From the NCBI GenBank assembly GCA_015061495.1, contig SUWL01000002.1, positions 1 to 64,000 of the forward strand: a stretch of DNA of 64,000 bases, written 5' to 3'. A program made the position numbers and the translations under genes. Positions within the stretch are counted from its first letter, which is position 1. Every line of letters begins with the position of its first letter. The notes under the pieces are model-generated. The model made no database searches and was not told where the DNA came from. It was given only the letters and a program-made list of their open reading frames with translations. Below are positions 29,794 through 32,882 of the stretch, in pieces. Source of the stretch: Lentisphaerota bacterium. Its GTDB lineage: Bacteria; Verrucomicrobiota; Lentisphaeria; Victivallales; Victivallaceae.

Positions 29794-31245
29794 TCACTGG
29801 CTGATTCTGCCGGTAAAAGATCCCGGATCGCGGCGGCGGCATGGCATGTTGTTACCGTTAATTTTGCTGTAATAAACGCGTATTACCTTGTTAATATGCT
29901 TGTTGTTTTCTTTAGATGCCAAAAACTGCCGGAGATTCAAGTCGATAAAGCGTTCTTTGTATTTTTCTTCCTCGTACAATTTCAAAAACTCCTCATCGCT
30001 CAAATTTCCTGACAAAAGCAGTTTCCGCAATTTGAGAAACGAGTCCCCATCCCGGTAGAAGTCGCTGACATATTTTCTGAATGCCGGGTCAAGTTCTTCC
30101 GGAAACTCCCGGTTTACTGCCTCAAACATATCTCTGAAATCGCGGCGCACAGGCTGGAAATGTCCGGTGAATGTTTCGCTGTTTTTAACAGACAGTTTAG
30201 CCATAAACAATCTTATTTTATCATGTCGCTCCTGCGCGTGCTGTTCGGCGATACGCTGCTGTTCCTGCGCGTGCTGTTCCGCGATACGCTGCTGTTCCTG
30301 CGCGTACTGTTCCGCGATACGCTGCAGTTCCTGCGCGTGCTGTTCCTGTGCGATACGCTGTTGTTCCACTTGGGCTGATGCGACTTGCCTGCGGATCACA
30401 TAGAGTGCAGCTGCCAGCGATAACAGCAGCACTGCGGCAGCAGTCATATACCGCCACTTCCGGGAAACTGCCGGCGAGAGCAATTTTTTCTGTGCGGTCT
30501 GCAAAGCGGCGAGCAGAGCTTGGGAACCGGCAAATCTTTGGGATGCCACCGGAGAGCAGCCGGAAGTATATATTTTGCCGGCACATGTCAATTCGCGTGA
30601 ATTACAATTTTCCGGAGGGATGGGACAATCAGCAGCATCAAGTTTGCTCCATGCGCAGTAAAATGTTTTGCACAAGGCGTAACAATCCCGGTCAATTCCG
30701 GACTGCGGATTATCCGGGATGAATCCGGCAGTCCCGGCTGCCCCGGAACCGAGAGTGCCGAAATCGGCAAATTTAGGCATCCCGTTGACAAAGATGATAT
30801 TTTCCGGTTTGATATCACCGTGGTATATTCCCGAATCATGCAGATGCTGCATTCCTTGAGCAAGAGAGATGAATAATTGAAGTATTTCAGCAAGGGACAT
30901 TGACGAATCAGTAATTCTGGCGGCGAGAGTATCCGGACGGTATGAGGAATCATCGCCGGAAATATTATCCGCAAGTTCCATAGTGTAATAGAACTCTCCG
31001 GAACTTAACTTCCCGGTTTGATACACCTGCGCCAACGCCGGATGGGGTGACAGCTCCCGCAGGAGAGTGATGGCATTCAGCTCATTGGTCTGCCAATCGG
31101 GACGGATAATTTTCAGTGCAAGTTTTTTACCGGTGATGTCCTGAACCATATAGATGTTTCCGGCGCCGCCATGCCCGATAACCGCAAGCAAAGACAGATT
31201 CTCCGGCAATGCCGGTGGTACAGAGTTTTTAAGACAGGCGATCAT
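29794..31245 (-). CDS. Membrane Ser/Thr protein kinase with C-terminal coiled-coil tandem repeats
   Basis: 483 aa: 'GHGGAGNIYMVQDITGKKLALKII', 'YHGDIKPENIIFVNGMPKFADFGTLG', TM 'AAAVLLLSLAAALYVI', 11-aa repeats EQQRIAEQHAQ. Confidence 0.88.
   Translation of the reverse strand: MIACLKNSVPPALPENLSLLAVIGHGGAGNIYMVQDITGKKLALKIIRPDWQTNELNAITLLRELSPHPALAQVYQTGKLSSGEFYYTMELADNISGDDSSYRPDTLAARITDSSMSLAEILQLFISLAQGMQHLHDSGIYHGDIKPENIIFVNGMPKFADFGTLGSGAAGTAGFIPDNPQSGIDRDCYALCKTFYCAWSKLDAADCPIPPENCNSRELTCAGKIYTSGCSPVASQRFAGSQALLAALQTAQKKLLSPAVSRKWRYMTAAAVLLLSLAAALYVIRRQVASAQVEQQRIAQEQHAQELQRIAEQYAQEQQRIAEQHAQEQQRIAEQHAQERHDKIRLFMAKLSVKNSETFTGHFQPVRRDFRDMFEAVNREFPEELDPAFRKYVSDFYRDGDSFLKLRKLLLSGNLSDEEFLKLYEEEKYKERFIDLNLRQFLASKENNKHINKVIRVYYSKINGNNMPCRRRDPGSFTGRISQ
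30231..30365 (-). repeat. 33-bp tandem repeat within the kinase gene (three 33-bp units plus a 36-bp variant)
   Basis: Unit cctgcgcgtgctgttccgcgatacgctgctgtt; encodes EQQRIAEQHAQ. Confidence 0.9.
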
Positions 31246-31823
31246 AATAACGGGATATTCAATTCCGGATCGGAAAAGTTGAGTTCTTCAATGATATTTT
31301 TCATAATTTCCCGGCACCGTTTTTTTCTGGCGGTCACGGTATTGGGGAGGATTTGCTGAATTTCAGCGACTTCTTTATCCGGACGGTTCTGCATACAGCA
31401 GAGATAAAAAGTTTCAAAAATTTCCGGGCGGACATGGTGTTTCAATTCGCCGAGAGCTTCTTTGATGACGTAAGTGCGGTATTCGGCGAGAAAATTTTTT
31501 TCAAACGAATCGTCACATTCCTCATTGGCACCCGGTCCCGGTGTGGCGGGCTGTTTGCGGAAGTAATCACAGATTTTATGGCGGATGATGCCGCCGAGAT
31601 AACTGCGGAAAAGTCCATGCTTCTGCCGGGAATAAATAAATTTGCCATTGTTGAAAAGCGCGAGCATCACCTGCTGGATGATATCATCCACATCAGCGAC
31701 CGGCACTCCGCGTTTCATGGCGCAGGACAATATCAGCGGATGATAGATAACATAAAGGTCATTCCACGCGACCTCATTTCCGGCGGCGATATTTTTTAAT
31801 ACAGTTGTTCTGGTCGTGTACAT
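31242..31823 (-). CDS. ECF-like RNA polymerase sigma factor
   Basis: Probable start MYTTRTTVLKNIAAGNEVAWNDLYVIYHPLILSCAMKRG; 'DVDDIIQQVMLALFNN'; 'LPNTVTARKKRCREIM'. ATGA overlap with the kinase start. Confidence 0.82.
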   Translation of the reverse strand: MYTTRTTVLKNIAAGNEVAWNDLYVIYHPLILSCAMKRGVPVADVDDIIQQVMLALFNNGKFIYSRQKHGLFRSYLGGIIRHKICDYFRKQPATPGPGANEECDDSFEKNFLAEYRTYVIKEALGELKHHVRPEIFETFYLCCMQNRPDKEVAEIQQILPNTVTARKKRCREIMKNIIEELNFSDPELNIPLL

Positions 31824-31841
31824 ACATCCCTGTTGCTTTTT

Positions 31842-31870
31842 TGGTAATGTCCCGAATTTTGTGAAACTTA
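31842..31870 (+). repeat. Partial copy of the GGTAATGTCCCRAATTTTGTRAAAC terminal repeat
   Basis: GGTAATGTCCCGAATTTTGTGAAACTTACAT is near identical to the start of the 60.97 kb copy. Confidence 0.55.
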
Positions 31871-32084
31871 CATCACCACAAACAGGACAATGACGTTTTT
31901 TTAAGATACAGCGTTTTGCCGCTAAAAACAAGAAAAATTCAAAATTTATATAAAATTTTTCACTTCCGGTGTCATATTTTATCTGATACGACCGATTATA
32001 GAAGCAGATAAAACTGGGTTGATCGGGGGGAACGCAAATTCCGGAAGAAAACGACAGCAATATCAACGGCAGAATTTAAATAAC

Positions 32085-32113
32085 TTGACAAACTTCCCAA
32101 CAGGTTGTATATT
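32085..32113 (+). promoter_or_regulatory. Sigma70-type promoter
   Basis: TTGACA (32085-32090) - 17 nt - TATATT (32108-32113). Confidence 0.75.
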
Positions 32114-32119
32114 AAAGTC

Positions 32120-32360
32120 ATCAACAATCTCAAAGGAGGTGACATCAGGTAATAAAAATTTCTGAAATCAATTAAAAACTGAAGAAGTGCTGTTCTAATC
32201 GAAAAACTTGCAACCTTTTTTATTTGGAACTCCGGCACGCATTGAATCAGTGTATCCATACCCTTATAGTGGAAAAATTGGATGCACCGTTCTGCTGTTG
32301 TGGAGTTCCGGGTTTGCAAGTACCCTCGATTAACACAGCCAGTGCGGTGCATCTTTTTTT
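32120..32360 (+). ncRNA. Candidate structured leader/attenuator or independent small RNA
   Basis: Terminator GATGCACCG (32281-32289)/CGGTGCATC (32345-32353)+T7. Alternative long-range pairing of 32190-32235 with 32302-32341. Confidence 0.6.
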
Positions 32361-32414
32361 GTGTACTGCAAAGAGGTAAAACGGGATTTCCAAACTTAAA
32401 AAAGGAGAAAAATC

Positions 32415-32882
32415 ATGGAAAACTCAAACATCACAGTGAATGTCAACGAACAAAAGAAAAAATCAAATGCAGCATGGATTTGCGGATTGGTCGGTTTTAT
32501 CACCAGTTTGCCAAATACTTTGTGCGCATTGATTTGCGCCGGAGCTACCGCTGCAGTTGCCGAAGAAGCGGCGAAAATGGAAGCCGTTGAAAAAGGAGCA
32601 ACTGACCTTGAAGCCGTTAAAGCTGCGGAAGCTGCTGCTGCTGGCGGTGTTGCCGGATATTTCTGGTTTATTGTACTGGTAAGCATTCTTTGTTTTGCTC
32701 TTTCTTTTATGGGAAAAGGGAAACATTCTCTGATTACAGGTATTGTTGTGCTGCTTGGCGGTATTTTTATTTTGATCAACGGTTTTGTCGGTTTTGGCAG
32801 TATGTTGTGGGGAACTGCGACCGGAGGTCTCTATATCGCCAGCGGTATTGTTGCCATTTTGAATAAAAAACGTGACAAGTAA
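32415..32882 (+). CDS. Small membrane protein of unknown function
   Basis: 155 aa, several hydrophobic segments, RBS AAAAAAGGAG before ATG. Confidence 0.75.
   Translation: MENSNITVNVNEQKKKSNAAWICGLVGFITSLPNTLCALICAGATAAVAEEAAKMEAVEKGATDLEAVKAAEAAAAGGVAGYFWFIVLVSILCFALSFMGKGKHSLITGIVVLLGGIFILINGFVGFGSMLWGTATGGLYIASGIVAILNKKRDK

Follow-up and report, generated by a model that had tools for sequence, protein, structure and literature searches.

The window analysed here is a stretch of 64,000 nucleotides from a Lentisphaerota bacterium of the Victivallaceae (GCA_015061495.1, contig SUWL01000002.1, positions 1-64,000 of the forward strand). Near the middle of the window, two genes lie on the minus strand and overlap by 4 nt. 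These code for a Ser/Thr protein kinase (29794-31245; Pkinase, E = 2e-17) and an ECF-type sigma factor (31242-32066; Sigma70_r2, E = 9e-8). The linker of the kinase (30160-30403) carries a low-complexity EQQRIAEQHAQ repeat. Divergent from the sigma factor gene, on the plus strand, a candidate controlled gene (32415-32882) codes for a membrane-like protein of 155 amino acids, preceded by a Shine-Dalgarno sequence. This protein has a weak match to DUF4064, below the Pfam cut-off.

Between the divergent genes, positions 32185-32363 of the plus strand are one copy of a structured RNA family, ending 51 nt before the candidate gene. The RNA at 32120-32365 (246 nt) has a folding energy of -72.8 kcal/mol, against -53.3 for shuffled sequences (z = -4.07), and its minimum-energy fold is rod-like. 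A predicted sigma-70 promoter lies upstream on the same strand (32085-32113), with TTGACA at 32085-32090, a spacer of 17 nt and TATATT at 32108-32113, and scores 11 of 12 matches in a consensus scan. Promoter-like sites in the whole region are no commoner than in shuffled sequence (2 found, 2.8 expected). The arrangement CTTGACA-17-TATATT is retained in the closest homologues. Recognisable promoters occur in only part of the copies.

A preliminary description of this site had reported the promoter, a terminator and a long competing pairing, and we found all three in place. The terminator is formed by GATGCACCG (32281-32289) and CGGTGCATC (32345-32353), followed by seven T, and the long pairing joins 32190-32233 with 32302-32339. 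The inner part of this pairing covaries across the family; its outermost part, GCTGT with ACAGC, is not conserved family-wide. Three elements were absent from that description, namely a hairpin termed P4, which occupies the 5' strand of the terminator, an early 5' hairpin termed P-alpha, and a GGGU/ACCC stem termed Px.

Homologues were collected in several ways. A BLAST search against 100 relatives gave copies at 73-86% identity and, in more distant genomes, two short blocks of near-identical sequence. An exact scan for the two-block pattern, which covers one sub-type of the motif only and is the sole source for occurrence beyond the phylum, was run over one genome per GTDB species (85,462 species). 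All eight hits fell within Lentisphaerae/Lentisphaeria, with Victivallis vadensis DSM 14823 among the genomes. A covariance model (R1), built on ten sequences from the BLAST and pattern searches, matched 23 of the 78 genomes of the family-level taxon. A second model (R2) had matches in 90 of 198 Lentisphaeria genomes, with up to 13 copies per genome, and, searched over the phylum at E up to 1e-4, in 117 of 388 sampled genomes. The RNA occurs at hundreds of sites across Lentisphaeria and related bacteria. Six of these are in V. vadensis, where two form a tandem pair, and the genome of the window holds a second copy on the minus strand (G000:C65:10231-10385). The motif patterns gave no match in phage and plasmid records, and none in viral contigs except one single-strand chance match.

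The first of the two folds consists of helices P1b, P2, P3 and P4, and was counted on an alignment of 88 copies (A5). All 35 modelled pairs have two-sided changes, and the covariation score is 0.857, compared to 0.216 after shuffling and at most 0.136 for slid structures. Since A5 was fitted to the model and these counts lean on it, we put the weight on the ten sequences found without the model and on further tests. In those ten, 12 of the 35 pairs show two-sided changes against 5.3 after shuffling, and none of 500 shuffles reaches 12.

P1b pairs AUCGA (32198-32202) with UCGAU (32326-32330); 99.5% of cells are paired, all 5 pairs have two-sided changes, and a partner-swap test, described below, gives z = -23.0. 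Next comes a junction strand (32203-32225), composed of AAA, the 5' strand of P2 (ACUUGCAA, 32206-32213) and CCUUUUUUAUUU. P2 is 96.6% paired (z = -14.7). P3 joins GGAACUCC (32226-32233) to GGAGUUCC (32302-32309), with 97.3% of cells paired, two-sided changes in 8 of 8 pairs and z = -29.7. P4, the putative antiterminator, pairs 32250-32258 with the strand that starts at 32279 (95.3% paired, 9 of 9 pairs two-sided, z = -17.5). The stem of Px (GGGU/ACCC, 32310-32325) closes a loop that is itself the 3' strand of P2 (UUGCAAGU, 32314-32321). As the strands of Px are nearly invariant, partner swaps are uninformative for it and pair counts were used: as GGGY/RCCU, it is 95.1% paired over 61 sequences, with a U-A to C-G exchange in 25 of the 61. 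In the A5 consensus, the most conserved letters of the core are the A-rich start of the junction strand and the ends of P2. Also among the most conserved are AAAAC before P2, AA/UU at the end of P2, and the GG and CC of Px. Of the unpaired letters, few are strictly conserved, and P2 tolerates much sequence change. An outer helix (P1, GCTGT/ACAGC) was also considered and dropped, being only 62% paired and failing the partner-swap test.

The second fold consists of the terminator stem, P5, and of P-alpha, both of which, like Px, are outside the covariance model. For P5, pairs were counted after aligning the 3' halves with MAFFT, an alignment fitted to no structure. Its nine core pairs are 83.6% paired there, and all nine have two-sided changes. 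The 3' arm of the terminator (32331-32360) includes the stem strand 32345-32353 and the U-run (32354-32360), and a U-run ends 88 of 88 copies. In P-alpha, the 5' end of the motif (32185-32197) pairs with 32227-32240, that is, with sequence overlapping and 3' of the 5' strand of P3.

When the two halves were aligned separately with MAFFT, RNAalifold gave no structure; indels probably put the arms out of register, and we used direct pair counts and partner swaps instead. In the latter test, each strand is paired with the matching strand of other copies, which avoids alignment effects. Own partners beat 5000 of 5000 permutations for P5 (z = -22.7), P4 (-17.5) and P-alpha (-14.1), and likewise for P1b, P2 and P3. 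Three control pairings had no signal (z = +1.1, +0.3 and -1.6), and the control pairing of the P4 5' strand with the terminator 3' strand does not exceed partner swaps.

The two folds are mutually exclusive, because P4 and P5 need one and the same strand, and P-alpha and P3 need another. The first of these, which we call the switch strand (32279-32301), pairs either with the 5' strand of P4, in what would be the antitermination state, or with 32331-32353, in the predicted termination state. The 5' strand of P3 is shared with P-alpha in the same manner. Two self-consistent states follow in our model: P-alpha together with P5, predicted to terminate, or P1b-P2-P3 with P4, predicted to allow read-through. 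Judged from the sequences, both folds are under selection. Covariation among homologues was a check that the preliminary description had set for its two competing folds, and the proposal survives it: terminator and competing pairing covary in dozens of homologues, and compete for the same strand by way of P4.

In terms of energy, the copy in the window is nearly balanced, with -61.3 kcal/mol for the long pairing with P4 and -60.1 for the 5' hairpin with the terminator, in a calculation that confines pairing to one state at a time and ignores pseudoknots and co-transcriptional folding. Averaged over the copies, nearest-neighbour energies, which leave out pseudoknots and kinetics, favour the first fold by about 11 kcal/mol, so termination might be rare unless this fold is blocked. 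At paired positions, G-U combinations outnumber A-C by 162 to 25 in the first fold and by 104 to 27 in P5. This excess of wobbles over mismatches indicates that selection acts on the plus strand, as RNA.

The position of the RNA relative to genes is strongly biased. In 78 of 87 copies, the RNA and the next gene beyond the U-run share a strand (p about 7e-15), while the strand of the upstream gene is close to random (52 versus 34). Genes in these counts come from a simple rule for open reading frames, not from a gene finder. In other classes of the phylum, too, most copies precede a same-strand gene. The distance from U-run to gene is mostly 20-240 nt, typically some tens of nt, and a Shine-Dalgarno sequence is usually present. 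The 72 downstream proteins fall into 50 Pfam families, of which the majority have one member only. Zinc ribbons are the commonest, then Sel1, TM2 and OB-fold-like proteins; SPFH, ankyrin, Vsr, DNA methylase and GTPase are single cases, and many proteins have no match at all. No common pathway was found among the downstream genes.

Relatives of the sigma factor/kinase pair of the window (29794-32066, minus strand) recur beside the RNA in both orientations. About 25 of the 88 copies have a kinase of the same family nearby, and about 20 an ECF sigma factor. By our own arithmetic on seven genomes that carry only 7-21 kinases each, about 13 of 25 copies have a kinase within 5 kb, against about 1 expected by chance.

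Near the predicted 5' end, the leader has a Shine-Dalgarno-like (SD-like) element (AAAGGAGGTGA, 32132-32142) with no start codon after it, for which the evidence is moderate. An SD-like match of at least 5 nt, located 15-105 nt upstream of the motif, is present in 43 of 67 copies, against 34% expected, and a start codon follows in only 8 of the 43, with no ORF shared among them. This element could be a stand-by site for the ribosome or a site that protects the RNA. Similar purine runs (AAAGGAGG, AAAGGA) are seen near the predicted 5' end of many leaders, and in a few copies GGAGAAA appears to occupy the loop of a small hairpin.

Comparison with known RNAs gave no assignment. Within Rfam 15, riboswitch classes included, nothing matched the window at gathering score; with E relaxed to 10, the motif region had chance-level hits only, and 20 loci with copies had no match over the motif at E up to 0.5. 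Acido-Lenti-1 RNA (RF01687) is a structured RNA reported in Lentisphaerae (Weinberg 2010, PMC2864571). Its model has 46 positions, is listed as not cis-regulatory, and matched none of the copies tested; it also gave no match in the genome of the window, nor in the control genomes. No description of the present family turned up in the literature searched.

Leader attenuators are a known kind of device. Terminator/antiterminator attenuators and riboswitch expression platforms likewise have one strand with either an upstream or a downstream partner, and a U-run, before a gene. In contrast to these, the present RNA has no recognised aptamer, a second, coupled exchange (P-alpha versus P3) and unusually mixed targets. 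Antisense-RNA attenuators control plasmid replication leaders, where the leader folds as terminator or antiterminator and a loop pairs with a strand. Here the loop instead pairs inside the same RNA, and plasmid and phage records gave no match. What appears to be new is this family, with its coupled double strand exchange and its breadth.

Taken from the sequences, this RNA is probably a 5' leader that controls the downstream gene through conditional transcription termination (probability about 0.8). A G+C-rich hairpin and U-run before the gene, a conserved pairing that excludes the hairpin, and a leader position on the same strand were all found, and of the cis-acting leaders a transcription attenuator would be the most likely kind. 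We infer that the nascent RNA would fold P-alpha first and P4 second. The outcome would then be decided by whether the 3' half can capture the 5' half ahead of P5 formation. If the 3' half, through P3, Px/P2 and P1b, pairs with the 5' half, P-alpha would be stripped and P4 kept; the 5' strand of the terminator would stay hidden and the polymerase would read into the gene. If there is no such capture, the strand would leave P4, join the 3' arm as P5, and transcription would stop at the U-run. The core would be the junction strand (AAAAC-P2-AAUUU) together with the Px hairpin, whose loop forms P2, and its formation is probably the regulated step. A signal would act at the P1b/P3/Px junction, site of the most conserved letters.

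What the attenuator would respond to can be read in two ways. One tentative possibility is a ligand riboswitch, in which a small molecule or ion would switch the gene on by stabilising the P1b/P3/Px junction. The letters of the core that may be conserved beyond the needs of the helices (AAAAC, GG...CC), the pseudoknot-like P2/Px and the two exclusive states are in line with this. The variable sequence of P2 and the scarcity of strictly conserved unpaired letters are not. Nor are the targets linked to one ligand: they vary extremely, with zinc-ribbon, repeat and membrane proteins of unknown role in the majority, which argues against a classical metabolite riboswitch.

A second possibility, held just as tentatively, is an attenuator whose effector is a protein or another RNA in place of a metabolite, for example a factor linked to the ECF sigma factor and kinase, or the 30S subunit on the SD-like element. 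The kinases near the RNA and an SD-like 5' element without ORF speak for it. Against it, most copies have no kinase pair within the stretch examined, the enrichment of SD-like elements is modest, and there is no known binding partner.

The preliminary description had left the choice between a riboswitch or attenuator and an sRNA. Covariation, strand competition and gene position uphold the former; the orientation of the genes weighs against the latter. It is unlikely that the site codes for an independent RNA of about 240 nt, made from its own promoter to its own terminator, whether 6S-like or otherwise trans-acting. Promoter and terminator do bracket the structure, and like 6S RNA (RF00013) it measures about 180-240 nt and is rod-like when drawn nested. 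Unlike 6S RNA, it precedes same-strand genes and its own terminator competes with the rod. The suggested link to 6S found no support: RF00013 had no match in the window or in its genome, while the control matched in 5 of 14 genomes, and no other Rfam family matched. An sRNA would have a same-strand gene after about half of the copies, and the count of 78 in 87, mostly with a ribosome-binding site, together with a U-run in every copy, makes an independent sRNA unlikely. Moreover, the P4/P5 and P-alpha/P3 exchanges would be purposeless in a plain sRNA. Once terminated, a leader could nevertheless go on to act as an sRNA.

Attenuation coupled to translation of a leader peptide, as in trp, would agree with the SD-like sequence that many leaders carry at their 5' end, but is largely refuted by the rarity of start codons and the lack of a shared ORF, and is highly improbable. 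A DNA element, such as a recombination site or an inverted repeat at the borders of gene cassettes, would suit the many copies per genome, mixed neighbours and patchy distribution, but the strand-specific U-run, the gene orientation and the plus-strand excess of G-U over A-C make it almost certainly wrong.

Returning to the attenuator, the copies may, plausibly though short of an even chance, form a phylum-wide and undescribed class of signal-sensing RNA switch. Through its two coupled exchanges it would gate diverse accessory cassettes, often beside a module of ECF sigma factor and Ser/Thr kinase, and the cue would be a single, common cellular signal (a ligand, a protein or the state of the ribosome) rather than a classical metabolite of the controlled pathway. 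The family covers gut and environmental bacteria with few described regulatory RNAs, including the cultured V. vadensis, and both folds leave separable covariation, which makes the mechanism directly testable. The signal, once found, would show a switch for many uncharacterised accessory genes and a reason for the ties to sigma factors and kinases.

Lastly, some copies are in tandem, 0.7-1.1 kb apart and each with its own gene after it. These were seen in V. vadensis (L061), at two loci of another genome (L064 and L036, G042) and at a further locus (L125, G008), where the two copies are nearly identical. In several MAG loci (e.g. L083, L104 and L113) many copies are near contig ends, which suggests a repeated sequence nearby.
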